Part shown: positions 29,163-61,891 of the stretch, piece after piece
Layout: each line of letters begins with the position of its first letter
Position numbering within the stretch: position 1 is the stretch's first letter
DNA from: Agarophyton chilense
Taxonomy: Eukaryota > Rhodophyta > Florideophyceae > Gracilariales > Gracilariaceae
Assembly: GCA_030374765.1 (NCBI GenBank)
Contig: JARGXX010000138.1
Span: 434,001-498,000 of the forward strand
Reading direction: 5' to 3'
Length of the DNA stretch: 64,000 nt
Translations under genes and position numbers: made by a program
The notes under the pieces: model-generated
What the model saw: only the letters and a program-made list of their open reading frames with translations
Told to the model about the DNA's origin: nothing
The model's database searches: none

Positions 29163-30530
29163 GGATTACGACTACGGGAGGACAACTGTTGCACGCCGTT
29201 GGCGTTTACAGTAATAATACGAGAACACCACACACAGCACCTATAAAGGACACCCACTTTTCAGCTATTTCAGCTTTTCCGTTCAATTTTGAGACAAACT
29301 CTTTGACCCTTTTCCAACCGCTGGCGTGTTGAGAGGTACTTTTCAGGATTTCACGAGTGGGGTCACAATTCCGAGGAATGAAGTCCTGGTCGCTTGAAGC
29401 ATGTTTGCCAAGAGCGATATAGAAATTGTTGATAACTGCGCCCATCTCCATTTTGCTTCTTTTGTAATTTTGGACGTTGACGTTCAGAGACGCATCGTGG
29501 GGAATGTCAAGGGTGGGAACTTGTTCGATCCAATTTCTTAGTTTTTTTACATTCACATTTTCAAGGAAAACGTTCCTCTTCCCTCTGGCAGAGAGTTCGA
29601 ACTTCAGAACAGCAAAATGCGAAACGTTTCCGAGCGCATAGAACGGCATCAATACGTGAGAACGTGCCTTGATATAGGTGGCTTTGTTGGAAAGCTGCTC
29701 GTAGACCTGAGGCGGACATTTGTTGATAATGAGCATAAAGTTGATGTGTTCCTTGGGCACCACACCGCTGAGACCATCCAGGACGCAAGCCAGGGATGCA
29801 ACGTCGCCTTTTCGCACGCGTCCGCCCTCAAGCGTTGCCACGAACACGAGCCTGACGCGACAAGGACCACGCAGCGCGTTTGAAATCTGTGCAAAAGTGT
29901 TTCCGTTGGTGTCAATGTCCGCCAGACCGGGCGTGTCCACGCAGGTGAAACCGTGGCTACGCGCTGTTATGGCTTTTTGCGTGAGACCAGTTCCGAATGA
30001 GAGGCCGGACTGGGATGAAATTTTTCCAAGCAGGGTGTTGTGAATGGTTGACTTTCCAACGCCGGGGTTGCCAAGGAGCACGGTTTTGATGGGAACGCCT
30101 GCGCTCATGTTGTTTCGGGGGTTGATCGCTGCACAGAGATGCTGAATGGTGAACAGGGCGATGTGGAGAGAGTTGAAGCAGGGCGGGGGGGTTGTTTAAG
30201 TGCGCCGTGCTCGGGGAGGGAGAAGGCATTGGGGCTGAGAGCAATCAATTAAGGCGATGGGTAGTGTCTCTAGTCGTGTAGCATAACTTTTATTTGTGTA
30301 CACGTGCAAGGATGATGCGTTGCAATTGTTGTGACGAGACGGAATTGTGAGTTGAAGGAAAACGAACACGTTAAGTTGCTGACTTACGGCATTGTGATTG
30401 GAGTGGGCGAGTGTGTCGGCGTTATAGGCGCGCTGCTTCTTTTAAGGTTTGGTTGCGTCGGTGGTGCCATAGATACTGTCAACGTGAGCATGACACGTGG
30501 CAGCGTTCCTCCTTGGTGGTGTCTCTCCGA
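29163..30530. repeat. Left arm of a large inverted repeat
   Basis: About 1.37 kb that matches the inverse of 35023-36470 at high identity. It includes the complete GTPase gene, its 3' flank (GGATTACGACTACGGGAGG at the outer edge) and about 420 bp upstream. The arms differ by an ~85-bp block present only on the right, in the upstream region. The outer edge stops 4 bp from the copia target duplication. Confidence 0.93.
29206..30108 (-). CDS. AIG1/GIMAP-like tail-anchored GTPase (left copy)
   Basis: 300-aa protein. The P-loop GNPGVGKST is at residues 13-21, the G3 motif DTPGLAD at 58-64, and the G4 position reads NKCP (129-132) where NKxD is usual. The last ~16 residues (FIGAVCGVLVLLL) form a hydrophobic C-terminal tail, suggesting insertion into an internal membrane. 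Proteins of this septin-like/AIG1 type bind GTP and often oligomerise on membranes; that role is by family and not shown here. No intron is needed. A near-identical copy lies inverted at 35528-36427. The upstream neighbour in the same orientation is the unknown gene at 31201-31746. Confidence 0.82.
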   Translation of the reverse strand: MSAGVPIKTVLLGNPGVGKSTIHNTLLGKISSQSGLSFGTGLTQKAITARSHGFTCVDTPGLADIDTNGNTFAQISNALRGPCRVRLVFVATLEGGRVRKGDVASLACVLDGLSGVVPKEHINFMLIINKCPPQVYEQLSNKATYIKARSHVLMPFYALGNVSHFAVLKFELSARGKRNVFLENVNVKKLRNWIEQVPTLDIPHDASLNVNVQNYKRSKMEMGAVINNFYIALGKHASSDQDFIPRNCDPTREILKSTSQHASGWKRVKEFVSKLNGKAEIAEKWVSFIGAVCGVLVLLL

Positions 30531-35022: not shown

Positions 35023-36470
35023 TCGGCGAGACACCACCAACGAGGAACGCTGCCACGTGTCATGCTCACGTTGACAGTATCTATGGCACCACCGACGCAA
35101 CCAAACCTTAAAAGTAGCAGCGCCACTGTAACGCCGACACACTCGCCTTTGCGTAAAGTGTCCACCTCTTCGCCGTCCCCGCCGTCTCTGCCGTCCAATC
35201 GCCGCCCGCCCGACTTCCACGTCACACACTCACTCCAATCACAACGCCGCAAGTCAGCTACTTAACGTGTTCGTTTTCCTTCAACTCACAATTCCGTCTC
35301 GTCACAACAATTGCAGCGCATCACCCTTGCACGTGTACACAAATAAATGTTATGCTACACGACTAGAGACACTACCCATCGCCTTAATCAATTGCTCTCA
35401 GCCCCAATGCCTCCTCCCTCCCCGAACACGGCGCACTTAAACAACCCCCCCGCCCTGCTTCAACTCTCTCCACATCGCCCTGTTCACCATTCAGCATCTC
35501 TGTGCAGCGATCAACCCCCGAAACAACATGAGCGCAGGCGTTCCCATCAAAACCGTGCTCCTTGGCAACCCCGGCGTTGGAAAGTCAACCATTCACAACA
35601 CCCTGCTTGGAAAAATTTCATCCGAGTCCGGCCTCTCATTCGGAACTGGTCTCACGCAAAAGGCCATAACAGCGCGTAGCCACGGTTTCACCTGCGTGGA
35701 CACGCCCGGTCTGGCGGACATTGACACCAACAGAAACACTTTTGCACAGATTTCAAACGCGCTGCGTGGTCCTTGTCGCGTCAGGCTCGTGTTCGTGGCA
35801 ACGCTTGAGGGCGGACGCGTGCGAAAAGGCGACGTTGCATCCCTGGCTTGCGTCCTGGATGGTCTCAGCGGTGTGGTGCCCAACAAACACATCAACGTTA
35901 TGCTCATTATCAACAAATGTCCGTCTAATGTCCACAAGAAGATTTACAACAAAAACAAAGCCACCTATATCAAGGCACGTTCTCACGTATTGATGCCGTT
36001 CTATGCGCTCGGAAACGTTTCGCATTTTGCTGTTCTGAAGTTCGAACTCTCTGCCAGAGGGAAGAGGAACGTTTTCCTTGAAAATGTGAATGTAAAAAAA
36101 CTAAGAAATTGGATCGAACAAGTTCCCACCCTTGACATTCCCCACGATGCGTCTCTGAACGTCAACGTCCAAAATTACAAAAGAAGCAAAATGGAGATGG
36201 GCGCAGTTATCAACAATTTCTATATCGCTCTTGGCAAACATGCTTCAAGCGACCAGGACTTCATTCCTCGGAATTGTGACCCCACTCGTGAAATCCTGAA
36301 AAGTACCTCTCAACACGCCAGCGGTTGGAAAAGGGTCAAAGAGTTTGTCTCAAAATTGAACGGAAAAGCTGAAATGTGGGGGCCCTTTATAAGTGCTGTG
36401 TGTGGTGTTATCGTATTATTACTGTAAACGCCAACGGCGTGCAACAGTTGTCCTCCCGTAGTCGTAATCC
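35023..36470. repeat. Right arm of the large inverted repeat
   Basis: Inverse match of 29163-30530. An extra ~85-bp GC-rich block near 35145-35230 is the main difference outside the gene. Confidence 0.93.
35528..36427 (+). CDS. AIG1/GIMAP-like tail-anchored GTPase (right copy)
   Basis: 299-aa protein, nearly identical to 29206-30108. GNPGVGKST, DTPGLAD and NKCP are all conserved. Differences cluster in one patch after the G4 motif (PSNVHKKIYNKN here against PPQVYEQLSN on the left, with a two-codon length difference) and in the membrane tail (GPFISAVCGVIVLLL). Both copies are open and keep the reading frame through the indel, so both may be expressed. Upstream in the same orientation is the unknown gene at 33915-34502. 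Confidence 0.82.
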   Translation: MSAGVPIKTVLLGNPGVGKSTIHNTLLGKISSESGLSFGTGLTQKAITARSHGFTCVDTPGLADIDTNRNTFAQISNALRGPCRVRLVFVATLEGGRVRKGDVASLACVLDGLSGVVPNKHINVMLIINKCPSNVHKKIYNKNKATYIKARSHVLMPFYALGNVSHFAVLKFELSARGKRNVFLENVNVKKLRNWIEQVPTLDIPHDASLNVNVQNYKRSKMEMGAVINNFYIALGKHASSDQDFIPRNCDPTREILKSTSQHASGWKRVKEFVSKLNGKAEMWGPFISAVCGVIVLLL

Positions 36471-41300: not shown

Positions 41301-41744
41301 TGTAACGCAATGACTGTTGGCTCAGCTTACGAGTCTCGGCCGGTGGTAGCGTGGTAGAGCGGGCCCTAAGGTTCGAATCCTTGACGGCGGCACTCCCAGA
41401 GTACTTGGTGCTATGGGCTGGCGTTTACTGCGTAGTCCTACAAGTTGGAGCTACGGAAACGATGGTTTGAAGACCAAAGGGTGGAACTAATATACCAAAG
41501 GGGGTTATTTACTATCCTGACGGTGCCTACCTTACTCTAAGGGAGAAGCGTCACTCGAGCCAAGTAAATACTACTGGCGAGGCGCTGTGATCTCCCTGGC
41601 ACTGTAAAGATAATCTCTTACACTAATTAAAATAAATTAATAATCTGCATGAGTCAACCTGAGGTCGAACCGTCCACGTGTCTCCTGTAAGATTCCTCAG
41701 TGCCCGGCGGCTTACAGCGCTCAACGGTTATCATCGCTCCTTCA
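41301..41744 (-). repeat. G3 3' LTR
   Basis: 444 bp, starting TGTAACGCAATGA in plus orientation, about 90% identical by eye to 61446-61891. It contains a tRNA-like stretch with A-box-like TGGTAGAGCGG (41352-41362) and B-box-like GTTCGAATC (41371-41379). Confidence 0.93.
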
Positions 41745-48013: not shown

Positions 48014-48015
48014 AT

Positions 48016-48042
48016 CGTCTGTGTTCTCGGAAAGCTAGTATT
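48016..48042 (+). repeat. Left TIR of the 11.95-kb element
   Basis: 27 bp beginning CGTCTGTGTTCTCGG and ending in GCTAGTATT. GCTAG recurs at 48047 and 48144. Confidence 0.87.
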
Positions 48043-48474
48043 AGCCGCTAGTTTAGTATGCCGGAAGATATCCGGCGAAAAATCTGCGAAAAATGACGGA
48101 TCGCGGATGCAGAGGTAATTTCTGTTAATTTTTTAGAGTGCCAGCTAGTTTTGGCTTTCGATTCTACATCAAAAACCTGCACATTATGAATGGGAAACGA
48201 AGGCAAAAGCCCCTGCTAGTGTACCGCCTATGTTTGGATGCCAAACCCTAGATGTGAATGACAATAATCTTGCTCAAACACCCTCCAACAAACCCATATG
48301 ACAATGACATCTCCCAGAATTACCATCCGCAATACGATCTGGTGTCGTCCACCATCCCCTTGCACCCCTCATCCTCCTCTCCACTCCCCGCAATCCCCGC
48401 CACAAACCCTCCTTCTCCTTCTCTTCTTCCCCAACAGGCCTCATACTTCAACTGGGGTGTTCTTGTAATGCAAG
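48043..48474. other. Left subterminal region of the TIR element
   Basis: About 430 bp with GCTAG motifs and an AATCTGCGAAAAATGACGGAT stretch that is weakly repeated beyond the Tc1 element at 49809-49830. No gene was seen. Confidence 0.4.
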
Positions 48475-48476
48475 TA

Positions 48477-49776
48477 CAGTGCGTTTCAAAAACATATCTC
48501 TTTACAAAAACTGCGCCAAAAAGGCATTTCACGTACTGTAGAGCACATTTCACAACATATAAAAACCACTAAGTCAATAACACTGTTTCAAAAGTATATC
48601 CTTTATACAATCATTCGCTCAATTATGGCTCGTGGCGCACCTCTGACACGCTCTTAACAGCTGGAAATCATGGAATTAGTAGGTCAGGGTATGATTCCAG
48701 CAGATATAGCCCGAAAACTCAAGCGCAGCCCAAAAACAATCAGCAACTTCATCAAAAACCCCGCTACATACGGAACAAAGCGTTCAACCGGCCGTCCTAC
48801 GGCACTATCCCCGGCCGATAAGCGTGGAATTAAGCGAGAACTATGCCGCAACACTTCATCTTGCGGAAAATTTGTCAAAACTCTAAATTTGCCTCTATCA
48901 CGATCTACAATATGGCGTGAAGTCAACCCTCAAAAGTTGTTCAAGTACACAAAAAGAGGAAAATTTTTTTTTTAAAAGATAATCACAAGAAAAATCGAGT
49001 TGAATGGTGTGCTCAAAAGGCTTATTGGAAAACAGATTGGAATAATGTTATCTTTTCCGACGAAAAAAAAGTTTAACCTTGATGGTCCAGATTGCTATAA
49101 ATTTTATTAGCATGATCTACGAAAAGAAAAGAAGGAATTTGTGACTAGGCATTCAGGAGGCGCATCAGTAATGGTTTGGGCTGGAATCTCCACGAAAGGA
49201 GCAACTGATATGGATTTTGTTGAAACTACAATGAACTCTGAGAAGTATGCTGAGGTTCTAGAAAACTATCTTTTACCTTTTGCATACTGTATGCACGGAG
49301 AAGAATTCATTTTTTAGCAAGATAATGCACCTGTGCATAAATCTAATTCTATGAAACAGTGGTTCAATAGTCTAAATATGTCGGTTATGGAATGGCCTGC
49401 GCGCTCTCCTGACCTCAACCCTATCGAAAACATTTGGGGAATGTTGGCCCGAATGGTTTATGGGCAAGGAAGGCAATTTGATACAGTTTTTGATTTGAAA
49501 AATTGTATCAAAGATTGCTGGGAAAAGATTGACTGTAATGCTATCAATTCTTTTATAGAATCAATGCCAAAGCGTTGTATAAGTGTTATACAGGCTAGAG
49601 GAGCAAAAATAAACTACTGAACTCGCGTTAGAATAAAAAGGATGCAATAAAGGTTATGATTTTGAAACAGTTTTTTTACTTGAAAATTTTTTCACACTGA
49701 TTTTGTTAGTTGTACTGTAGCCAAAACGTCGATTTTTGGAAAATTTGCGCGAGGGATATGATTTTGAAACAGACTT
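48477..49776 (+). mobile_element. Tc1-type DNA transposon with IR/DR ends
   Basis: 1.3 kb flanked by TA (48475-48476, 49777-49778). Each end has two GTTTCAAAANNATA-type motifs: 48484 and 48586 on the left, and their inverses near 49766 and 49662 on the right. This gives the IR/DR layout known from Tc1/Sleeping Beauty-like elements, where each motif is a transposase-binding site. One transposase gene, broken, lies between. Confidence 0.85.
48625..49620 (+). pseudogene. Tc1 transposase, DD34E (broken)
   Basis: Start MARGAPLTRS at 48625. An in-frame TAA at 48655 is followed by an HTH region (MIPADIARKLKRSPKTISNF) and a second HTH ending TIWREV. A frameshift lies in the A/T run near 48966. The catalytic part shows IFSDEKKFNLDG, then QDNAPVH and SPDLNPIENIWG. 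There are 34 residues between the second Asp and the Glu, which is the Tc1 spacing. Further stops occur near 49108 and 49316 (TAG in front of QDNAPVH). It cannot make active enzyme. Confidence 0.93.
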
Positions 49777-49778
49777 TA

Positions 49779-50430
49779 TGAGGTGCAAGAAGCGCAGGGG
49801 GTAAAGAAAATCGTCAAAAAAATCTGCAAAAAATGAGGAATGGGCAATGTGCAAGCAATTAATTCAGATTTTTCGGATACCACACCTTCGCGCATTCACA
49901 CGAATCCTAGCAGTGGAGAATGCAGAACGCAAGGGCACTAAAGCGCTAGTTTTCATCTCATTCGATGTAAATGAAACGCTAGTTTACTTCCCTTTACTAA
50001 ACACTAATAAACTCTTGAATCACCCCACTATTTCTTCCCTTCAGAAGTACTTCCCGCCCGTTGTCGGCTGCGTTTCCGTTTCCGGGAACGTCAGCGCATA
50101 GGAGTCTTTCGGAGAACTAACCCTTTCCTCCTTCACAGCTCCACCCCCACCACGCTCCTCCTTTCGTTCAAGAGTATTCCACCTTTGCATCTCCTGCTAT
50201 GGTAGAACCCTCTCCGTCTTACTCACAGCAGTCGCCAACGTCCTGAACCCACCCAGCTCCCCTACTTCTCTCTTCCCTTCTTCTCCCTTACCTTCACCTT
50301 CACCCTCATTCTGTCAAGCTCCGTATCCCTCGCCACATTTGGCGTCTCCTCCCCAACTCTCCCTTTCCTCTTGCCCACCTCCTTCGTTGCCTCCACCTTC
50401 TCCACATCCTCCTCACTCACGGGAAACGCT
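49779..50430. other. Spacer inside the TIR element
   Basis: About 650 bp. The frame at 49847-50101 has no recognised domain. A pyrimidine-rich run covers 50120-50400. Confidence 0.35.
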
Positions 50431-51838
50431 CTAAGCCCTTCGATATACGCGTGTTCGCCGGTGGAACACAGCTGAGAGTGGGCTGTGCAGTTATGGTCAC
50501 GCAATCTGTTACTTGCATGCTCTTCATCGTAACCTGAACCATAAAATCACCCTCCATATTCGCAGCAAAGAGGGTTGGAGTCTCCTCGTCAAACCCTGGT
50601 AGACTCTAGCCGGTTCCATTTCGTCGGCGCTGATTAGTTCAAGCATCCTCGTAGCCGAAGTAAAAGTCTGAAGAAGGTACGAATCATATCTTTCATCGAT
50701 ATGACGCCTCAAAGAAAACATGTCCTTGATCCCCGGCAACTCCTCCGAGGCATGTTCAGAAATACCGATTCCTTTGCGGATTATCCTCAAAGATCAATCC
50801 TTTCCTTGAGCATGTGATCACCTGATTCTGTTCGTGTCGTAAGTATCCTACACCCTTCACCATACAAAAGTCAATTATAGGTCCCAAGTGAGGATAAGTT
50901 CGTACAATTTCTAAAAAACTTCCAGTTTATACGTTTCTCTCACGTCCTAGACGAACAAGCTGTGAATCGCCGGTATTAGAGCCCATGAACGCGAACGAAC
51001 TGTCCAAATAAGAGATGCAACAGGCAGTACTTGTCTCTCCAAGTGCTTCTAGTTTGATACCAGTAATGGTATTCTTTTGGTCTGTGATAAGCAAAGGAAT
51101 GCTAAGACAGCCCTTCTCATCACCGATGAGGTATCTAATGCCTTTCTCACCAACTTTGCCCACGGGAGTTATGATTGCGACCTCGAATGGTTACGATATT
51201 TGCCCACCATGAGCCGTAAGGTATGTCACAAAGTCCTCTCCAAATATGAGAACGCCGCCTATGGGATCTGGGACAGCAACGAGTTTCGAGGCGGTAATCT
51301 CCAGCGTTGCGCTCTTCCACGAACCCTCCGCAACGTCTTGGTCGTTCATACGGATTTCTTACGTTCGCAACTCGCGGCTCTCTTTTCCATGAGCACACAA
51401 GACGGCTACAGTGGGATACTGAAAGCCGTGGAGGAACACCATGTCGAAGATGGTTTCCTCAAGGAGCCTGACGTTAAAGGTGGTTTTGTCAGCATCGCGT
51501 TCGGTGGGAACTACTTTCAGCAGACGCTTGTACTGATGAAGCGCGACACATTTGGCTTTGGGGTCGATAATGCTCATATAACTTGTACTTTTCCGTGATG
51601 ACGATAAGTTGGTCCTGTGTCTTACCCGGGACTCGCATGAGGTGCATACCGGAAATAGTTCCATGAATTGGAAGTTCAATGACACATGCCTGCCCTTCCT
51701 TGGTTATAGTATACAATTGAATGTAGCTGACCTTGGCAACGAGCAGGTTGCGCTGATCCGGGGCCAAGAAGCTGCCCACGGCTGTGTGTCAGACGCGCGA
51801 CGCCTTGTGCGCGGTGACGACGTAGTTGTACATATTGC
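50431..51838 (-). pseudogene. DDB1: DDB1 gene fragment (5' third), broken
   Basis: DDB1 is the adaptor of CUL4 ubiquitin ligases and a damaged-DNA binding subunit built of beta-propellers. The minus strand begins MYNYVVTAHKASRV, matching the conserved DDB1 N-terminus. It continues IIDPKAKCVALHQYKRLLKV, LGETSTACCISYLDSSFAF, NTGDSQLVRLG, IIRKGIGISEHASEELPGIK, FAANMEGDFMVQVT. This covers roughly the first 400 residues of the ~1,100-residue family. There is a TGA after codon 14 and several frameshifts and stops. The rest of the gene is absent, so this is a captured 5' piece and not a decayed whole gene. Confidence 0.88.
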
Positions 51839-52319
51839 TTCAAGGACGGGTGCTCCAAAGCAGTGAAGACGAAAACGGACGCGAGAGAGGCAACTGAGAG
51901 ACTGACCGACAAACTACGTGAAAAGTCCCCATCGCGCCTCCGATATCCAAACAGCGTGAGCCATGCACGAGGGCGCATGTAATCGTTGTGTGGAACCGTT
52001 CGACTCCGAAGTTGGCCGAGACCGCTCATATTCTCGTTCACGGTGCAATTTGGCAGCCGGTCATGGTGTGTGCTGAGTCTTCAATGGTGACGCGGTTTGC
52101 GCTGGCCAGTTGCAAGCAAGATACTGACACCAGCCGGAAAGCGGATTTTTGTGAAACTAAGATACAAAAAAACTGTTGAAAGGCTCGGGAGCGTTGAAAA
52201 CTTTTGTATCGCAAGAAGTACAATCGCGTCAAGAAACGTGGCACAACGTCAAGCACGAGACAATTGGCTTACTGGATAGATTATTGGATCGAGTTCCTTC
52301 GCGGCCCTCTGGAAAGGAA
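51839..52319. other. Unassigned region between DDB1 and GH16 fragments
   Basis: About 480 bp that could include the DDB1 5' flank. No domain was recognised. Confidence 0.3.
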
Positions 52320-53132
52320 GGAGACTGGACTTTGATAGAGAGCGTAAGTGACGAATTCGAAGGCAATGCCCTGAACCTCGACAAGTGGGAGCCATTCAAC
52401 AGAAATAGGAAGGGTCGAGCTCCTGGATGGATTAACAGGGAGAATGGGACGGTTCGAGACGATTGCCTGCAGCTGCACTCGCGTCTACAAGCGCCTCCGA
52501 CTTGTTATCCTCCGGCCTACCACAAATTCTCAACCGCGTCTGTTCCAAGCAAGACAAAGGTGAGATATGGATATTTCGAAGCAAAGGTGGAGCTGGCAGA
52601 ATCCTGTGTTGCAAGTGCTTTCTGGTTCGCCTGCAACGACGCTCAGACGTGGAATCAAATCGGTGTGTTCGAGGTGAGTGGAAAGTGCGGTTACGAACGT
52701 AAGTTCACCATGAACGCACATGTGTTCCGCAAGGGTGGTCAAATTCTGGCAAAGAAAATTGCATCACCCTTAATCCACAACACTGCCGTTCCGAGTTTGT
52801 GATGAGACATTCATCACCGCCCTAGACTGCACGCCGGAGTACATTAGATGGATTGTGAATGGCAATATCGTTCGACAAATTCCTAATGAACACTGGCACG
52901 AGGAAATGTGGGTACAGTTCGATTGTGAGACGATGCCTAACTGGTTCGGGATGCCGAGCGTCGTAGTGCAGCTGATAAACTCTTACAAACTCAAAACGGG
53001 TGGAGTACATGTGGCATATGAGAGCGCAGCGCATGCCTGTTTGGTGGAGGGAGTGAGGACTGCGATACGGGCGGTTGAGCCAATGGTCATGAGTTTTGCA
53101 GAACATGGTGGTTTCGCTCTCCTCGGTGCATG
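52320..53132 (+). pseudogene. Glycoside hydrolase family 16 fragment, frameshifted
   Basis: GH16 enzymes cut beta-linked galactans or glucans (agarases, carrageenases, laminarinases). Visible family blocks are SDEFEGNALNLDKW, GRAPGWINREN, VRYGYFEAKVELAES and ASAFWFACNDAQTW, then WNQIGVFEVSGK where EIDxxE-type catalysis is expected. After a frameshift near 52800 come TPEYIRWIVNGNIVRQIP and FDCETMPNWFGMP. The catalytic motif reads QIGVFE, so the nucleophile Glu and the middle Asp are both replaced. The fragment lacks a signal peptide start. GH16 subfamily and substrate were not determined; in red algae such genes are plausible matrix-galactan enzymes. Confidence 0.83.
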
Positions 53133-54900
53133 ACTCCCGGATTCATAAGATTCTACAGTTGGTCGCAACGGTGGGTATCGCTCCAAAGATGATTCACGAC
53201 AGGATCACGAGGAATGACCCGCAAGAGGAGCCTGGTGAGAGACGCAAGCGTCGCGTGCAAGATTTCATGTGCTCAAAGACGCACTCGAGATTCAACGAGC
53301 GGAGGGGACATGTGCAGTGTTTGCAGTGGACGTGGGATTCATGGCCACCCAAAGCGAACTCAAAGCGATACACCGCGTTGTGATTTCGCACACGATTCAG
53401 TGTCGGGAATTGATCATGTGGGAGATTTGATGATATAAAAGATGAAAAGGTAGTAAGAGCGCGGATGACATAGTTTTCCACCGTGTGAAGTTTGTAACTC
53501 TTTGTCGAGCTGTGCCTCACATAGCGGCATTATCGATATGCTTGTGGAGCGACGAGAGCAGCGATCAGAGCGAGACTGGTGGAAACATGCTGCGGAGGCG
53601 CAGACGGGAGTGCAAGAAGAGTACGGCAGGAAAGTAGAGGACCAGGCAACCAAAACCGGGCGGCTACGACCATGCGACCACGATCATGGGTCATGGCCGT
53701 GCGAAAGGTCGGGGCGCAAGGGAGAAACAGAGGATAGGTCTCATAGCAGGCCATCACAGACGAAATGGCGTCAAACAAAGCGTCGTCGGGAACGCTAGCC
53801 ACCGTGCGCCGCGTCAGGAAGCTTCACCATGAACGCAAATGAACGAGGTGAGCACACGGACGGACAGACGCAATGGTCACACAGTAGACACGCGGAGCCG
53901 CTACACCGCGGGGACTACGCGGAGGAAGCGAAGAGCTGCTGCGTAGCAAAGAGATCAATTCCAGTGAGCAACGTTGATGGCGAGGCGAGTAGGAGAAATG
54001 TGCGAGAAAAGTGGGTGTTGCAGCTACTGGTGGCTACAGGCGGTGAAATCGGGCAGGAGGCCAATCGACAGGGCGTCGCTGACGTCGGACTTCTGACCAA
54101 TCAGAAAGCTAGGTTCAGGTCTCCGTACCTTGCAAATCAGCTCGTTTAGGCCGATCCGCTCTCCACCTACAGAAAGACTAGGCTCAAACATTGCTGGAAG
54201 TCGGACGTCAGCGACGCCGTGTCGATTGGCCTCCTGCCGGGTATCACTGCATACGCGCACGGCTCTTTGTCGAGGTCCAAAACACCCGGCAACCGCGATG
54301 CTCAAACCACCACCACAACTACCCCGAACGCAATCCCTCCCCTTCCCTGGACCCTCCTCCTCCCTCTCTCTCAACCCTAGTCATCCTTAAGCCCCAGCTC
54401 GACGCGCACCAAACATTTACCGCGCTGCTCGCGCCCCTGCATACAGCCGCATCCCGCCATCCCCATTTCCGCATTCCCCTCCTCCCTTCTCCCTCAGCGC
54501 TTTCACCGAGGGTGCATCCAACGCTGCACGTTACGCACCTTCCTTCCGAAAGCCAACCCTCCAACTCGCCATCTTGTTGGGATTAGCGCACCGACTGCTT
54601 CCAAACTTCATTTTACTTTGCCTCAACCGTCGTCACCGTGATCCACATTCTCTCCAGCGCCCTCCTCAGGGCAACCGTTCCCCGATCTCTTTCTGAATCC
54701 ACTGGAAACGCCAACTCAGCTTTCACATCCCACATTTGTACCATCTTCACCAAAACATCATCTTCCGCTGCAACCCCGTCCGCAACTAACCATTACATTG
54801 CCATTTCCTCTCCACCTCCTTTCTCAGTGCGACATACCTTCCCCGACTTCCTGCTAAATACAATGCCACACCCAACTCCGTCTTCAAAATCAACATTTGT
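53133..54900. other. Low-information interior of the TIR element
   Basis: Contains the inverted repeat at 54042-54247 and a weak BED-finger-like stretch on the minus strand near 53290-53360 (CKHC .. HMKSC pattern). That would be transposase-like if real, but the context is too short to call. No other gene is supported. Confidence 0.3.
54042..54247. repeat. Imperfect palindrome, about 51-bp arms
   Basis: Arms 54042-54092 and 54197-54247 share GGCAGGAGGCCAATCGACA and GGCGTCGCTGACGT on opposite strands, separated by 104 bp. Each arm has a CCAAT box. It could be a small inverted-repeat insertion or a duplicated promoter piece. Confidence 0.85.
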
Positions 54901-54944
54901 ACAACCACAACCAAACATCATCTGCCGCCGCTACCTCGTCCGCA

Positions 54945-55155
54945 ACCCCGTCCGCAACTCACCCCCGCACTAGCTCTCCCTTCACCACGGCCGCAACCCT
55001 GTCCCCACCTAACCCCCGCACTAAATCTCCTTCCACCACGGCCGCAACCCAGTCCCCACCTAACCCCCGCACTAATTCTCCCTCCAACACCGCCGCAACC
55101 CCGTCCGAAACTCACCGCCGCAACCCCGTCCGCAACTCACCCCCGCACTAACTCT
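54945..55155. repeat. 51-bp minisatellite, about 3-4 copies
   Basis: C-rich units of the type CCCGCACTAAATCTCC..ACGGCCGCAACC, period 51 bp (17 codons), partly degraded at the right end. Confidence 0.85.
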
Positions 55156-55217
55156 CCCTCAACCACCGCTCCAACCTTAACTCTGACTACGAACCCTCTC
55201 GCGAAGCCCCACTCCAA

Positions 55218-55966
55218 CTAGCCCGCCTTCACAAACGCCCAGTCCATCACCGCTTCCACTACACCCCTCGCGGCAAACCCCATGATCGCTTGCACTACAA
55301 CCACTCGTACCACCGCCCACCTCACTACCACCCCCCTGACCACCACCTCGAAGACCGCTTCGAACCAACATTGGTCTAGTTCCCGTTCTCCTGCACCTAT
55401 TCCAATGGCACTTTCCACAATAGCGTGCACAATGCCGTCATACCCACCCGCCTCCATTGAGATTGCTTCTTCGATCCATCTTTCCCGCGAAATGATCACG
55501 CATTTGAAGCCCTCCCTCATGATCCTCACCATTTCCTCCGTTTTCTTGGCATGTTCTATTTCTTCTAGCTGTGCAACTGTGATCCAAACCACTATGTGCC
55601 CAGGTACCACCCTCTGTGCTTGCTTCAGAACCGATCTTGCCCGCTCATAACTCTCTAGGTGCGCCAATGCAATCCACATATCTACCTCCTGGGGTACTCT
55701 TTCAACAGCCTTGAGAAGCAGCATGCGCACTCCAGCCGGATATTCCACTTCGATGGAAGCTTTCCACACATCTACCCCCTTCAGAATCACCTCCAACTCT
55801 TTTCGCAATACCCGCTTCTTCGCTGACTTGTCGACCTCCAGCGCCGCTGCTTGCAGCCAAATATTGCTCAACTTTGGCACGTTCTTCATTGCCTTCACCA
55901 GAATACGACCGGCGATCTTTCGGTCTTGATGCATGCGTGCCGCCTCAATCCAAACGTTCTCATCCT
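55218..55966 (-). pseudogene. PRPF6: PRP6/PRPF6 splicing-factor fragment (HAT repeats)
   Basis: PRP6 is a U5 snRNP scaffold built of HAT/TPR helices. From about 55966 the minus strand reads DENVWIEAARMHQDRK, then LSNIWLQAAALE, RRLLRKELE-like helices, VDMWIALAHLESYERARSVL, HIVVWITVAQLEE and SRERWIEEAISMEAGG, ending AIVESAIGIGAGEREL. Each ~34-residue unit has the HAT W..A..E pattern, and the order matches the middle of PRP6. The frame is open but both ends are cut: it starts just after a stop at about 55968 and turns into unrelated sequence near 55300. It is a captured internal fragment. Confidence 0.87.
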
Positions 55967-55969
55967 AAC

Positions 55970-56765
55970 AAGGGTTGTACAAACTCCACAGGTATGGAAT
56001 GATGAGCATCATGTATCGTATGATATACTTTCGTCCCAAACGGACTTCAATTTTTTCCCTGACACCTTTCGAGTAATCGATGATATCAACGCCACCATTA
56101 GGGACCACTCCAAGAAGGCAGAGGGCATCCGGTATTTCGTTCCATACCGAGAAAAGACGGTTATTCGCGCTGAAGATCAATACTGCATCTCCCTGACATG
56201 TAGTCATGAGAACGCTTGGAGGGATATTCAGGACGGAATACCAGACCAGTACGGGTTGCTCAAACTTTATTGGACGAACGCGGAGCTGAACTTGGTTTAG
56301 GTTGCACCATCGTCCTATGTAAAAAATTCGTCGGAACTCCACTGGTCTTTGTCGCTGCCAAATTTGTCTGGGAAGATCTCTGTAGACTTGTCGGAAATAC
56401 TTACTTCTGTACGAAAGAGCAAAAACAAACAGGATGTCGTGCATGGGAAAAACAGTGGCGCGTCGTACTTTCAAAAGTCACGAGCATCATCACTAGCGCA
56501 AAGAGTGCTTATTCAGTTTGAAACTTTCGTAGCCCATCACCCCAACATCTCTCCAGAAACAACGTCCCAGGGAACGAGGAAAGTCGTAGAGCGCACGATT
56601 CTTTCTGCTGGGAACAAATGTGAACTATCCGACAAGTTCAATTCAGATGATGACATGCTGTTCTTGGATGTCCCTGAACATGATTTTCTGGACTCTGTGA
56701 ATAGAAGTGAAATACGGTTTACCGCATCTAAGATCTCAATCTGCACCATAAGTCATCTTTCTTGA
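55970..56765 (+). pseudogene. Unidentified protein-coding fragment
   Basis: The plus strand stays protein-like over about 265 codons with one break near 56300. It starts VVQTPQVWNDEHHVSYD, has FFPDTFRVIDDINATIRDH, YFVPYREKTVIRAEDQ and HENAWRDIQDGI, and continues SELHWSLSLPNLSGKIS to FLDVPEHDFLD before TGA at 56765. Residue use looks like a real soluble protein, but I do not recognise the family. It abuts the PRP6 fragment with almost no gap, consistent with another captured piece. Confidence 0.45.
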
Positions 56766-57720
56766 ATCTATTTAGAAACTATGCACCCGGTGGATATCAT
56801 ACGATTTCAGCCGAAGAGAAATCTTGCATTGAGGAAAGGCGAAAGAAAACTTCTCTCCGTATCCTTAAGGCCGGTCGTTTGCCTACTTCAATATAGTGTC
56901 TAACAAAGCCCTTTCCAATGCTAAGAGTTGAAGAAAAGCAAAATGAAAACCTTGACGGAGGCCGCCCGATTTTTGGTCCTTCGCCCGAAAAGAGCAACAA
57001 GCTGGGCGAAGACAGGTTATGTTCCGCAGGAAATAACTCAATCAATTGTTACGGTCTTCCGACTGGTCATTCCCACATTTTGGGAGGGAACACCTTTCGA
57101 TGGACCACGAACTCATATCGAAAAGTAGCCTATTGCCAAAGTCGATCTAACCCTCGGTTTCAAGATAATTTATTGGGCGATGGCATCAGAAATTTTGGCC
57201 AACATGAACTTAGTGCACATCCAATGGTCCTTTCTGGAACTTCAGGATCAGCATTCATTCGAAATTCAAGTACCCCCACCAGTCATCACGCTCCACTGCC
57301 ATGTGATGCAAAAAAAAGTCTCAGTAGTTTTAAGTCATAGTCTCGGGTCGTGATTTCATGCATTGACAGCCACTCCTCCTGAACCTTCGTTGCATCGTAG
57401 GAATCTGCCGCCGAAAGTAGATGGAGGGCAGAGCGATCACCAGAATACCCTCCGCATTGAGAGCTGGAAAAACTCTCTTTAGCACCTTACTGCAAATGAT
57501 ACAATAACTGTGCCTACGTCTTGATCAAGGTTTGGTACGAGTATCTACTTCACCCAGGATGATGAGGGCTGAGTTCATCTTTTTTTTGTGTACCATTTTA
57601 CTCTTTCATCTGAGTCAGTCTCAACCAAGTGATGGCCATCCATCTTTTTCCATTTCCGAGGCCGACGACTGACGCAGCTCTTCGGACCAGATTCTCAGCC
57701 TATCGTCTTCACCTCTCAAC
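56766..57720. other. Interior of the TIR element, nothing recognised
   Basis: About 950 bp. Short frames on both strands near 56800-57340 show no domain. Confidence 0.35.
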
Positions 57721-58581
57721 GTGCCACCACCTCCAACAGGCCCCGGATCCCAAAACATTGTTCTGTCATCCGGCACCGCATCTCATCTGCCCCATCTGCC
57801 CCCCTCGCCCCCTCACTCCTTCTTCCTCCTCCATCCTCCGTCGCTTAGCATGGCACTGCATCGCCTCTCCGCCCGCTTTGGCCCTACTGACGTTCTTGTG
57901 CAAACCGATGCCGTCCCTTCCTCCCAGAGCGCCGACGATGCCGAGTTTCCCGACTTCCTGCCCGTGCCTTTTCAGTCCGTCACTCAACACTTCAGCTTGG
58001 CGCGCTTCCGCCCCCAAGACCCTGACTTTCTCACCGACGCTGGTATGCTCTCACCAGCTTAATCTGACGACGCAAGATGCAAAATCTGTTTTCATCCAGA
58101 TTCGTCCCCTTTACGCCCATGCCCGCAATGTCGCGTCACCGCCTTTCATCACTGTCTCCGCTCGTGGCTTCGCGTCAAAATCAAGAACGGTGATTTCAAT
58201 CATCTCTCCTGTTTTCTGTTCCATGAGCTCATCCCCGACGCAGAAGTGAGAAATATCGTGGGAGAGCTCGAATTCAAAAGGTGTCTTTTCTTTTGCTCCG
58301 ATATTCAGCATGGAAGCAACCCTACCGCAGCATGGTGTCCAAAGGTGGGATGTTGGAAACTGTTGCGGTGCAATGTGCGTAAACTATGCGTCAATACCGC
58401 GAACATGACCTGCCCGGATTGCGACACGCAGGTGTGCCCTCGATGCTTCAGCGAAGGTCATGGAGATGACATGTGTCCAGTACCTACCGTCGCCGTCCGA
58501 GAAAAGACACTCTCCCGTATCTGGGAGAGGGTTCACACCAAAAAGTGTCCAATATCTCGAATATCTCTAGTAACACTGTGA
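57721..58581 (+). pseudogene. RBR-type E3 ubiquitin ligase fragment
   Basis: RBR ligases pass ubiquitin via a RING1-IBR-RING2 module. One plus-strand frame carries a Ser/Pro-rich N-part, one TAA at 58060-58062, then RING1-like CKICFHPDSS..CPQCRVTAFHHCL. An IBR follows with WCPKVGCWKLL, TCPDCDTQVCPRCFSEGHGD and DMCP. The expected RING2 start appears as WERVHTKKCPISRIS, where the second Cys pair is already lost, and the frame stops at 58581. The catalytic Cys of RING2 is absent. It is a broken fragment with single-base lesions. Confidence 0.82.
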
Positions 58582-58904
58582 AGAACGATCGCTCTAGAAT
58601 GTATCCAATGCGCAAATTGAAATCCCAGGAAACAGAGACTTTAGTTTCCACAGGGGATGAGGAATCCGGTTTATATCAGAGAATAGCAGAAACAACTGCG
58701 GGGGAAACAGGGCCTCTTCGAAAACGGGCAAAGTGCATGATTCCAAGAGCCATAGTTCCTCCAGCATTCGAAAGTCCTCGCAGGCTTGTCGAAGAATCAC
58801 CAATCAGACATGTTATTTTTTGCTGCTGCGAAGCGACAGAAAGGAGCGATTAGGTGAAGAGGGGGACATTCTGGAAGGACTGGGCCGAGCAAGGATCTTA
58901 GGAG

Positions 58905-59333
58905 GTGAGTGCGTCATTTAAGTAATGTGGTTTCGATTTTGGTGGAAGTCTGACTTCTATTTCTTTCTTGTTACGACAGTGGTTGATCGGGAAATGGTGG
59001 CATCAAAGGTAAGTGCGAGCTTCATTCATATCTTGTATGCGTTAGGGAAGGATATCTGACTTGCCGTTGTTTGCTGCTGCAAGAGAACAGGGAGGCAAGA
59101 TTGGACAAGAGGTAGGGTAAGTGGTCGCTATAGAGGTGAGTGTGGTGCTGATGTGGTTTGGGTTTTATTTGTGACGGAGATCTGACTTTGGTCTATTTAT
59201 TGATGCGAATGCACAAAGTGGGAGCAAGACAAGGAGCACATATTTGGGAGAGGTAAGTTTGTTTATATGGAATTTGCTTGCATGAAGCGAGGAATTGGGC
59301 TCTAACTTGTGTGAGTTTGTGATGTCTATCTAG
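58905..59333 (+). other. Series of four intron-like segments with tiny exons
   Basis: Four donors (GTGAGTG 58905, GTAAGTG 59009, GTGAGTG 59136, GTAAGTT 59253) alternate with branch-point-like CTGACTT, CTGACTT, CTGACTT, CTAACTT. Acceptor-like ends lie near 58979, 59083-59090, 59219 and 59333. Implied introns are about 75-84 nt and implied exons 29-45 nt. Two acceptors are AAG rather than CAG/TAG. It could be the end of a spliced gene captured with its introns, or a diverged ~115-bp tandem repeat. Confidence 0.5.
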
Positions 59334-59419
59334 TAACATAGGAATTTGTGATTGATGAAGCGTGAACTCGTGTACCGCTTGGACGGTTCTCGGAGAATGG
59401 AGGGTTCTTTGCGTTGCGC

Positions 59420-59475
59420 TTCGCGCGACGCGAAGTGAAGCGCGCGACGGCGCGACGCGAAGTGAAGCGTAACGA
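59420..59475. repeat. Short direct repeat, GC-rich
   Basis: GCGCGACGCGAAGTGAAGCG occurs twice (59424-59443, 59451-59470), preceded by a partial inverted copy. Confidence 0.85.
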
Positions 59476-59526
59476 TCAGAGAACGTGATGCAAAGCGCAC
59501 GTGAATTGGGAAGATGTCATTTCACG

Positions 59527-59559
59527 TGCAACTGGGACCCGTTTCGGGTCTCAGTTGCA
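59527..59559. repeat. Hairpin, 14-bp stem
   Basis: TGCAACTGGGACCC and its near-perfect inverse surround a 5-nt loop; one position is a G-T pair. Confidence 0.85.
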
Positions 59560-59937
59560 GGATCGCCGTATTATGCACTGGCCATAGGGTCATTAGAGAA
59601 CATTAAATTGAATGTGCAAAGCATTTTAATGGTTCATACTAGCTACGATACCTGCACGAAATGAATGATCATGCGCTAGATAGCATTCAGTATTCCGTTC
59701 ATTGTCTGTAGAATTCATGGTCTAGGATAAATGAGTATCGAAAGATATCTCCCAAGTTTTCTTCCATTCTTTCTAGTGTGCCGGTGTTAGTACGGATGTT
59801 TGCTAGTTTCCTAGATTCTCCCCAAAATTCACTTGGGCTAGTATTTTTGCGCTAGATATTCTGGCATCAAAATTCTGCGAATTTTTGAATGCTAACCATA
59901 GACATTCTAGCACACCCAAAATAGAGATCTAGCACCC
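59560..59937. other. Right subterminal region of the TIR element
   Basis: AT-leaning, no gene. GCTAG or its inverse recurs at 59802, 59837, 59851, 59907 and 59929. Confidence 0.5.
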
Positions 59938-59964
59938 AATACTAGCTTTCCGAAAACACAGACG
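59938..59964 (-). repeat. Right TIR of the 11.95-kb element
   Basis: 27 bp, inverse of the left TIR with one mismatch; followed by AT and then G3 gag. Confidence 0.87.
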
Positions 59965-59966
59965 AT

Positions 59967-61243
59967 GTATTGAACAACCTGAGGGTATGACCTGAGGGGC
60001 TCACGGTCTTTAGCATCCACGAGGTCAGTTGTGCCAGATATCTTCGAAACCACTCGGTCACGCGCCTGTCCTGTAAGGAAGAATTGGAAAAGGTACAGAG
60101 CGGCCCCTCGTGGACACCGTTCTGATCAAAGGCCTTACGAAACAAACTGAGAAACCTAAGGACGGCAATGGGATTGAAACCCGAGAACTTGTCCGTAATG
60201 GTTAGTTGCATCCGTTTGGCCCATTTGGCGTGTCTGCAAGCCACCGAACCAGAATATTTCGCGGACCTGTCGGCCAGCCGGTAAGTCCGGTAGTCTAGAA
60301 CCTTAAGGAAAAGTTCGTTTGTGGTTGTCAGTGGTCTGAGGCCTCGAACGGCAGTCTCATCCACTTCCGAGTCGGTCGTTTCGGTCGAGGCCGATTCGGA
60401 ATAACTCCTGTCCGAATGGTCTCTGCTCTTGTTTTTTCTATTCTTCTTTTTCCTGCAGCTACTTCGTTTCTTCCCAGCAGAGTAGGGACATAAAGTTTCG
60501 ATCTTTCTATTAGATCCTATGGAGCCCTGAGGTCGTTGTTTCTCATATAATCCGTCGGGTGGGGCAAGCGGTCTCTCTTCTAGACGCGGAGCTTCTCTTC
60601 TGCTCCTCGCTTGTCCCTCTCTTGTATTCTCCTGACGGGCAACCTGTCTCTTTTCTAGACGGGGAGCTTCTCTTCTGCTCCTAGATTGTCCCACCACGGG
60701 GTTTTCCTGATGGTATTCCCGGTGAGGCGCGGATAACGCCGCCGCTCCTGGGGGTTTGGTAGGGGGTTGCCATATGGAAGCCAGATGGTTGACTTGTGGA
60801 GGACTCCTAGGGACCGTGTTGCCTGACTGGCTGGTGACTGCTCCTTGAACGGCCTGAATGAGGGAGTCTAAGAATAGTTCAGACTCCATGACCTTGGGGA
60901 TGATTCGCGTAATGAGGTAATCCGTATGGTTGGCGAATGCCGTGGCGAGTTGCATGTTTAAAATGCAACCCACATGGGCTGAGAAGAGCTCACGGAGACG
61001 GGGCCAGAGAAGGTCGGCAAGTCCGGCGGGAATGTTCTCTCTAATTTTTTCGGTCTTACGGCGTTCTTTTTATGGTGTTCCTGGCCTAGAGGTGGCCCTG
61101 GTGAGACGTTCTCGTAAATGCGCTGCTACCGTGGGTTTTCGGCGAATCCTTTCAGGGTCGTCCATGGGAGTCAGTACTCCTTGCGGCTGGCTTCCCGTGC
61201 TCCTGCGGTCGCTAACATTACCAGCCTGAAGTTCAGACGACAT
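59967..61243 (-). pseudogene. gag: G3 gag, N-terminal part
   Basis: Likely start MSSELQAGNVS at 61243, about 185 bp inside the PBS. One frame continues with an in-frame TAA near 61070, then VGCILNMQLATAFANHTD, a repeated-looking REAPRLE stretch, a basic NRKNKSRDH and an acidic SASTETTDSEVDE linker. A gag core follows (LFLKVLDYRTYRLADRS matches LYRTLLSYRYYRLEDSS of G1). After a frameshift near 60070 the sequence reaches VVQY at the insertion point. Two near-identical ~60-bp blocks near 60590 and 60660 encode the REAPRLE repeat. Confidence 0.83.
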
Positions 61244-61445: not shown

Positions 61446-61891
61446 TGTAACGCAATGAGGGGTGAGTCAGCGTACGTGTCTCGACCGGTGGTAGCGTGGT
61501 AGAGCGGGTCCTAAGATTCGAATCCTTGACGGCGGCACTCCCAGAGTACTTGGTGCATTGGGCTGGAACTTACTGCGTAGTCCTACAGTTTGGAGCTACG
61601 GAAACGATGGCTTGAAGACCAAAGGGTGGAACAAATATACTAAAGGGGGTTACTTAGTATCCTAATGGTGCCTACCTTACTCTAAGTGAGAAGCGTTAGT
61701 TGAGCCAAGTAAATAGTATTGGCGAGGCGCTGAGATCTCCCTGGCACTGTAATGCTAATCTATTACACTAATTAAAATAAATTAATAATCTACATGAGTC
61801 CACCTGAGGTCGACCCGTCCACGTGTCGCCTGTAAGATTCCTAAGGGCCCGGCGGCTTAGAAAGCTCAACCGTTATCATAGCACCTTGACA
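61446..61891 (-). repeat. G3 5' LTR
   Basis: 446 bp; ends CCTTGACA in plus orientation, followed by the target duplication CAGAC at 61892-61896. Carries the same tRNA-like stretch as the other LTR (A-box-like 61497-61507, B-box-like 61516-61524). Confidence 0.93.

Follow-up and report, generated by a model that had tools for sequence, protein, structure and literature searches.

What kind of element occupies positions 48016–59964 of a 64,000-nucleotide stretch of the genome of the red alga Agarophyton chilense (contig JARGXX010000138.1), and how did it come to hold pieces of several ordinary host genes? Coordinates below are positions in this stretch, which we call the window; C-numbers denote contigs of the assembly that was searched (79.8 Mb, 135 contigs) and L-numbers denote loci that were read. 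An earlier note, made from the letters of the window alone, described a gene-capturing unit that resembled Pack-MULEs and fitted no nameable family. The first half of that description agrees with what we find, namely host gene fragments with parents on several contigs and many copies of the unit’s ends; the second half is overturned, because a transposase of the Plavaka type, which is EnSpm/CACTA-related, is encoded by relatives that share these ends. It is very likely that the unit is a non-autonomous, Pack-type DNA transposon of a Plavaka family (CACTA/EnSpm-Mirage-Chapaev-Transib group).

The element lies on the plus strand and measures 11,949 bp, or 10,647 bp without a nested Tc1/mariner copy and one TA. 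Its left terminal inverted repeat (TIR), CGTCTGTGTTCTCGG..., spans 48016–48053 on the plus strand and its right one, CGTCTGTGTTTTCGG..., spans 59927–59964 on the minus strand; the right end is of the type near which relatives carry the transposase. When the two ends are compared, 33 of 38 bases are identical, among them the 26 of the first 27 that the earlier note had counted. The 25-base end matches the window twice, compared with none expected from 100 shuffles, and no internal element end was found within the window at ≤3 mismatches. AT stands on both sides of the unit (48014–48015 and 59965–59966), and the reading of this dinucleotide as a target-site duplication (TSD) is borne out by empty sites. 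We compared the 1-kb flanks with the genome; among the best 40 of 573 and of 577 candidates (the window itself included), 12 loci besides the window were common to both flanks (C2 twice, C4, C13, C20, C27, C37 twice, C73, C88, C92 and C120). At 11 of these the left match stops at base 999 and the right match begins at base 3, with one base between; at the C13 locus the right match begins at base 7, with five bases between. The spacing at all 12 is that of an uninterrupted retrotransposon copy with room for exactly one 2-bp target. The ends, the AT duplication and the 12 uninterrupted paralogues agree: 48016–59964 is a single unit with inverted ends and an AT duplication, and, as had been proposed, it moved whole.

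These ends recur across the genome. The 27-bp end is found at 155 places at ≤3 mismatches (87 forward, 68 reverse), a count that includes the window’s own two ends and mixes two related end families, A and some B, so the suggestion that there might be no other copies does not hold. A 25-base core is found at 102 places at ≤1 mismatch, and a backwards control gave none. Family-A ends, to which the window’s belong, read CGTCTG..CAGACG, and family-B ends read CGTCTG../CGTCAG... We read 17 end pairs, no more than 30 kb apart, with both flanks; C40 was excluded (its flanks equal those of C126) and on C16, where two left ends are possible, we took the outer one. The flanking dinucleotides are equal in 12 of the 17, compared with 4.9 on shuffling (P = 7e-5), in a sample that is biased in that the search pattern started with AT and the pairs were drawn from the ends listed. 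The equal duplications are AA seven times, TT three times, CA in C21 and AT in the window. On C126 (35317–60152, L039–L042), two left ends with an identical 14-bp upstream flank lie 11.0 kb apart and face one right end; C40 has one left end and the same flanks, and the double end on C126 may be an artefact of assembly, or the left part may have been duplicated in tandem.

We name the family Plavaka after the transposase found in relatives that have these ends. The trail begins with family B (ends ATCGTCTGTGTTCTCGGAATGCTAGAT-like / CGTCAGTG..), of which the AT-flanked, 4.8-kb copy at L051 contains an 803-aa frame matching the Plavaka domain PF18759 (E = 2.7e-19). Used as a query, the family-B protein gave 58 genome matches (56 scored of 581 candidates), several of them in uninterrupted 1137-aa frames. 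The C98 element, which has the window’s ends, holds an N-terminal piece related to this protein, a similarity first seen by eye, and this piece as a query gave 117 matches (116 scored of 338 candidates). We defined a family-A-like set of 56 of the 117 (≥59% identity, start within the first 30 query residues) and measured their distances to 100 of the 102 listed 25-base ends. For 16 of the 56, a same-strand right-type end stands at a distance of 2.17–2.27 kb, and 28 are located inside a listed family-A end at no more than 25 kb from it; for 100 CACTA (Transposase_21) matches, the corresponding counts are 0 (at 2.0–2.8 kb) and 4. Against a PF18759 cut-off of 26.3, the family-A protein at L065 scores 74.2 bits (E = 1.4e-20) and the family-B protein at L058 scores 80.8 bits. 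The family-A protein on C61 is a 981-aa frame without a stop, and 776 aa of this frame lie in L065, inside the end pair C61:40325–59235. In an alignment of eight proteins (two algal, six database relatives), the residues D342, D456, C476-x2-C479, H754-x3-H758 and E778 are invariant in all eight. On the strength of this predicted transposase, the family is assigned to Plavaka, outside both published sublineages.

Family B (CGTCTGTG.. / CGTCAGTG..) is itself compact, with copies of 3.0 and 4.8 kb read among L051, L052 and L058; many of its copies keep long open frames (several of 1137 aa with no stop) at 93–97% identity and look young. The 100 CACTA (Transposase_21) matches across the genome, some in frames of more than 1000 aa, are apparently independent of family A.

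How much of such a transposase-bearing relative does the window copy retain? Its left subterminal backbone (48016–48476, plus strand) is 94% identical over the first 267–268 bp to the far ends of the C61 and C21 elements, both of which carry the transposase, and about 420 bp of it are common to C98, C3 and C40. Its right subterminal backbone (58804–59964, minus strand, 1.16 kb) is 87–90% identical to the corresponding end of the elements on C98 and C3 (L010, L021), which bear the transposase, and the inner part is 85–90% identical to sequence just upstream of the transposase at L061, L062 and L064–L066. Between them, a repeat-rich middle block of 940 bp (54237–55176) has copies at about twenty further sites; many of these copies, those of C61 and C21 included, lie about 6.0–6.4 kb inside a family-A left end (positions by eye). 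A further segment (49777–50440, plus strand) lies outside the listed match to the DDB1 parent described below; part of it (49781–50022) is present in C80 at 83% and the whole is present in the DDB1-carrying C109, C95 and C100. This segment is probably left subterminal sequence as well.

The window’s DNA matches to transposase-bearing loci end short of the gene (blastn), and no Plavaka match lies inside the window among those listed (56 of 581 and 116 of 338 candidates scored). Because the backbone ends are kept and the matches stop before the transposase gene, we regard the window copy as a deletion-and-replacement derivative; it is a Pack-type copy, with the ends, subterminal regions and 2-bp duplications of the family and without the transposase gene of its relatives. 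The earlier note was right that the element lacks a transposase gene of its own, but it overlooked a nested 1.3-kb Tc1/mariner copy (48477–49776), flanked by TA at 48475–48476 and 49777–49778, whose HTH_38/Tc3 and DDE_3 pieces are the sole transposase matches that Pfam gives in 10 window open reading frames (ORFs). This nested copy is not in the sibling element on C4, and another copy is in the C98 element; by this comparison, Tc1/mariner entered the window copy later.

We located the parents of the captured pieces by one DNA search (49760–58800) and two protein searches, and then read parts of the parents. The DDB1 piece (50440–51913, minus strand) is an N-terminal coding fragment with a deletion of about 95 bp, frameshifts and stops, and its parent, at C10:724384–725954, has a 1144-aa open frame. 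Next to it is a block of the GH16 locus, gene and flanks (51905–53831, plus strand), with deletions of 47 and 358 bp relative to its parent at C25:257980–260310; that parent encodes 293 aa and has EIDVFE where the window has QIGVFE. At 53830–54043 (minus strand) the DDB1 5′ flank follows, where the C10 sequence picks up beyond the GH16 block at its earlier break. The PRP6 fragment (55358–55966, minus strand) is 92.3% identical, ungapped, to a parent on C88 with a 947-aa open frame, and the fragment of a gene that we call X (55965–56904, plus strand) is 96% identical to C10:720887–721836, where a 366-aa frame is open through the 1.1 kb read; Pfam gives no match for X. Finally, an RBR (IBR) ligase fragment (57793–58559, plus strand) is 94.9% identical to a parent on C117 whose frame is at least 381 aa and runs off the stretch read. 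It sits in a block (56903–58800, plus strand) that is 92% identical to the elements on C6 and C80. Where the DDB1 flank meets the middle block, there is also a 54-nt inverted repeat (89%; 54040–54093 and 54197–54250) with a 103-nt spacer.

The DDB1, GH16, PRP6 and RBR fragments that the earlier note had recognized are therefore real, as both the searches and the parents show, and the parents of the five genes lie on four contigs, in open frames, at 92–97% identity. No intact DDB1-GH16-PRP6-RBR order exists elsewhere in this assembly that could have supplied them together, given parents on C10, C25, C88 and C117. The fragment that had been left unassigned is present and now has an origin, since gene X and DDB1 are divergent neighbours on C10 and both pieces keep the parental order and orientation. 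Capture from several sources thus stands, with the amendment that DDB1 and X share one host locus, so that the number of captures may be smaller than the number of pieces. Because non-coding flanks came along, the source would have been genomic DNA. The 47-, ~95- and 358-bp gaps relative to the parents are deletions; splicing was rejected as their cause because their aligned boundaries lack GT..AG and because the last two gaps remove coding sequence. Stops or frameshifts interrupt the DDB1, GH16 and RBR pieces, and pN/pS (from small counts) is 1.28 for PRP6, 0.68 for RBR, 0.63 for GH16 and 0.41 for a short DDB1 part. These values and interruptions give no indication that the cargo is maintained for its protein products, except that PRP6, with a 248-aa frame open in five copies (window, C68, C113, C97 and C4), may be so maintained.

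The joints of the captured pieces allow part of their order to be read. The C10 sequence halts at about 51913 and continues at 53830, with about 3 bp in common (a ragged BLAST overlap, by eye). Because the GH16 block thus sits inside captured DDB1 DNA, within its 5′ region, DDB1 would have been captured before GH16, and capture, as far as these joints tell, was stepwise. At the joint between PRP6 and X there is a 2-bp overlap. The C6 element has the DDB1-GH16 join and the RBR block, and the C80 element has the RBR block together with the GH16 block's end; joins common to these elements are therefore older than the window copy. The window interior, host fragments included, is found at C4, C68 and C113 at 98%, each time as a single stretch. 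The flanks of the window and C4 copies differ, and the C4 copy lacks the Tc1 insertion (it has a single TA) and carries a nested Ty3/gypsy-like element. The C68 and C113 copies measure 10,621 and 10,622 bp end to end, lengths that would fit a Tc1-less copy (10,647 bp). With three further interior copies at 98%, the loaded unit appears to have been amplified after capture.

Host cargo is not peculiar to the window copy. We examined seven family-A lineages (window/C4, C71/C79/C105, C6, C80, C98, C40/C126 and half of C3), with a Pfam scan of cargo that covered 10 ORFs, and recognizable host fragments are present in five of the seven. These include an enoyl-ACP reductase piece in C71 (E = 2.1e-33), PDS5 in C98, DDB1 with GH16 and RBR in C6, and RBR with GH16-locus DNA in C80; C3 gave only matches below the cut-off and C40/C126 gave none in the two ORFs tested.

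Three observations touch on other contents of these contigs. The 11-kb C71 element carries a Copia-type reverse-transcriptase piece (RVT_2; L031, 3535–4302, minus strand), and C79 and C105 are 99% alike to C71 over the whole unit, suggesting that this retrotransposon fragment was amplified with the element. The PBS linker domain (PF00427) matches at 13 places, of which one each is on C88, C10, C68, C16, C1 and C80, large contigs that also carry family ends. Another seven of these matches are on C39, which looks plastid-like and contains two copies of one linker region in direct orientation at a distance of 186 kb; this contig may be a circle assembled past its end. Among 14 control genomes, Synechococcus elongatus alone has a PBS linker match, so that in a eukaryotic assembly of 80 Mb the linkers point strongly to a red-algal host.

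Taken as a non-autonomous Plavaka transposon, the unit would have been assembled and moved as follows. A Plavaka transposase supplied by a relative would bind the ends, excise the unit and reinsert it, as the shared ends, the TSD and the several copies suggest, and insertion would duplicate 2 bp (AA, TT, AT or CA in the pairs read). The joints suggest that host genomic DNA took the place of the transposase region step by step: a segment of the DDB1-X locus would have been in place before the GH16 block, which was set into the DDB1 piece at almost no cost to the surrounding DNA, and the PRP6 and RBR pieces would have been added at some stage. Short homologies probably served as the sites of capture, through break repair or template switching. 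Once loaded, the unit would have amplified and diverged while its passenger pieces decayed. A broader proposal, which we advance tentatively and hold at a little under even, is that this red-algal Plavaka lineage is a habitual gene packer, with the end regions and the middle block as a chassis onto which host segments are accreted in layers. Accretion would then proceed by repair inside earlier captures, and several dozen units might be shuffling pieces of core host genes.

Several observations weigh against assigning the unit to Plavaka and against this route of capture. Five of the 17 end pairs have unequal dinucleotides (C3, C4, C10 at 614–640 kb, C16 and C98), and C4 is the window’s sibling. 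Joint overlaps of 1–3 bp are frequent by chance alone. Forty of the 56 family-A-like Plavaka matches have no listed right-type end at 2.0–2.8 kb, and for one of these the nearest lies at 1.4 kb. The transposase-bearing family-A copies are known from partial reads, and the CGTCTG..CAGACG termini fit neither PlavakaA (TGT..ACA) nor PlavakaB (CATCA..TGATG) of Kojima 2025.

The closest competitor keeps the same Plavaka family and changes the mode of capture: by local hopping, two neighbouring insertions would come to flank a host segment, and the outermost ends would mobilize everything between them. This is the published model for Pack-CACTA and Pack-TYPE elements (PMC8903248), and DDB1 and X, which share a host locus and keep its order and orientation, look as a contiguous captured segment would. 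However, the window contains none of the internal ends sought above, no family-A end lies near C10:720–726 kb among the ends listed (about 100 places per listing), and the GH16 block, which interrupts the DDB1 piece and costs it almost no sequence, resembles an insertion into DNA already captured. We therefore consider local hopping unlikely, while giving it more weight than any other alternative. A different kind of argument concerns the unit as one moved host segment, for which the neighbouring DDB1 and X would speak; since the parents of GH16, PRP6 and RBR are on three other contigs, a single moved block is ruled out in this assembly for the whole set, which leaves this origin highly improbable, and it stands for DDB1-X.

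The remaining candidates concern the enzyme. CACTA/EnSpm proper (Transposase_21) might seem suited to the role, given its 100 matches in the genome, the relationship of Plavaka to EnSpm (PMC12730594), and a size and GCTAG-like subterminal repeats (by eye) that are CACTA-like. The element’s ends are not CAC..GTG, however, and the Transposase_21 matches are not tied to family-A ends in the comparison described above; CACTA was rejected as the driver on that ground and we rate it as very unlikely. Mutator-like transposons duplicate 8–10 bp at their targets. A Pack-MULE would have similar content, with several host gene fragments between inverted repeats, but here the duplications are 2 bp, as the empty-site spacing also indicates, and the transposase tied to the ends is Plavaka, so that a Pack-MULE is highly improbable too; no search aimed at MULEs was made in the genome. 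Least probable of all, to the point of being negligible, is that the Tc1/mariner remnant is the unit’s own transposase. Its HTH and DDE_3 pieces do lie inside the unit, but they belong to a nested copy with its own TA duplication, of which another copy sits in a different element; the single TA in C4 refutes this candidate, and the unit’s duplications, AT here and AA, TT or CA in other copies, depart from the TA of Tc1/mariner.

The Plavaka unit was received by a retrotransposon, Ty3/gypsy-like by eye, whose long terminal repeats (LTRs) lie at 41301–41742 and 61446–61887 and are 442 bp each and 89.6% alike. The insertion point is in its minus-strand gag, between residues ~309 and 351 of a related gag. 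The claim that removal of the element exactly restores the gag frame is not confirmed: by arithmetic on the best gag alignments either side, the frames disagree once 11,951 bases are subtracted, and the receiving gag holds an in-frame stop. Within this gag there is a 75-bp tandem repeat (80%; 60562–60711). Elsewhere in the window, two frames for MMR_HSR1/AIG1-like GTPases (29206–30195, minus strand, and 35441–36427, plus strand), nearly identical by eye, are inverted and about 5 kb apart.

Most work on gene capture by TIR transposons concerns land plants and, of late, animals (PMC8903248, PMC8277862). Here, the nesting of one captured block within another, with open-frame parents available, makes part of the capture order directly readable. 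Layered elements, siblings and empty sites together allow a test of break repair versus local hopping in a lineage far from plants and animals, and would link the Plavaka group, mostly fungal in the papers cited, to a Pack-type life style. Our literature searches, whose reach left out most subscription papers, found no report of a Plavaka-tied gene packer. Pack-type elements as such are already known, and a Plavaka-type serial packer with CGTCTG ends looks new.

Comparison with known systems places the element between several of them. Kojima 2025 (PMC12730594) describes for Plavaka a D-D-E triad with C(2)C and H(3-4)H between the second D and E, and TSDs of 2 bp in PlavakaA and 2–3 bp in PlavakaB. 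Family A has in common with this description the transposase domain, the D-D-E, C(2)C and H(3-4)H pattern and a 2-bp TSD like that of PlavakaA; it differs from the published termini, and the window copy is in a red alga, lacks the transposase and carries several broken host genes. Some fungal Plavaka encode a TET/JBP gene (PMC12730594), and EnSpm-Plavaka has been described in a green alga (PMC12633428). Giant Plavaka repeats in Amoebidium contain tandem gene clusters, many for tyrosine recombinases (PMC11244446), and giant transposons without a transposase in Ectocarpus, from the KDZ, EnSpm and Sola-1 superfamilies, have been likened to Pack-MULEs (PMC12477816). These resemble the window element in being large, probably mobilized in trans and loaded with non-transposase cargo, and differ from it in superfamily (Ectocarpus) or cargo (Amoebidium). 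Giant EnSpm elements of red algae (Petroll et al. 2025, as cited in PMC12477816) share a related transposase group, large size, cargo and red-algal hosts; by the citing paper’s description they carry accessory genes, in contrast to the broken ordinary host genes found here.

Among Pack-type elements, those of plants occur in all main TIR superfamilies (Pack-MULE, Pack-CACTA, Pack-hAT, Pack-PIF and Pack-Mariner; PMC8903248). Like the window element, they are non-autonomous and TIR-bounded, hold fragments from one or more loci and are present in several copies, and wider elements hold more loci; unlike them, the window element is tied to a Plavaka transposase and is not from a land plant. Animal Pack-TIRs likewise hold host DNA between TIR ends and show microhomology at many breakpoints, for which gap filling or template switching has been proposed (PMC8277862). 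They are mostly single-copy, with parents often nearby, whereas the element described here draws on five genes from four places on four contigs.

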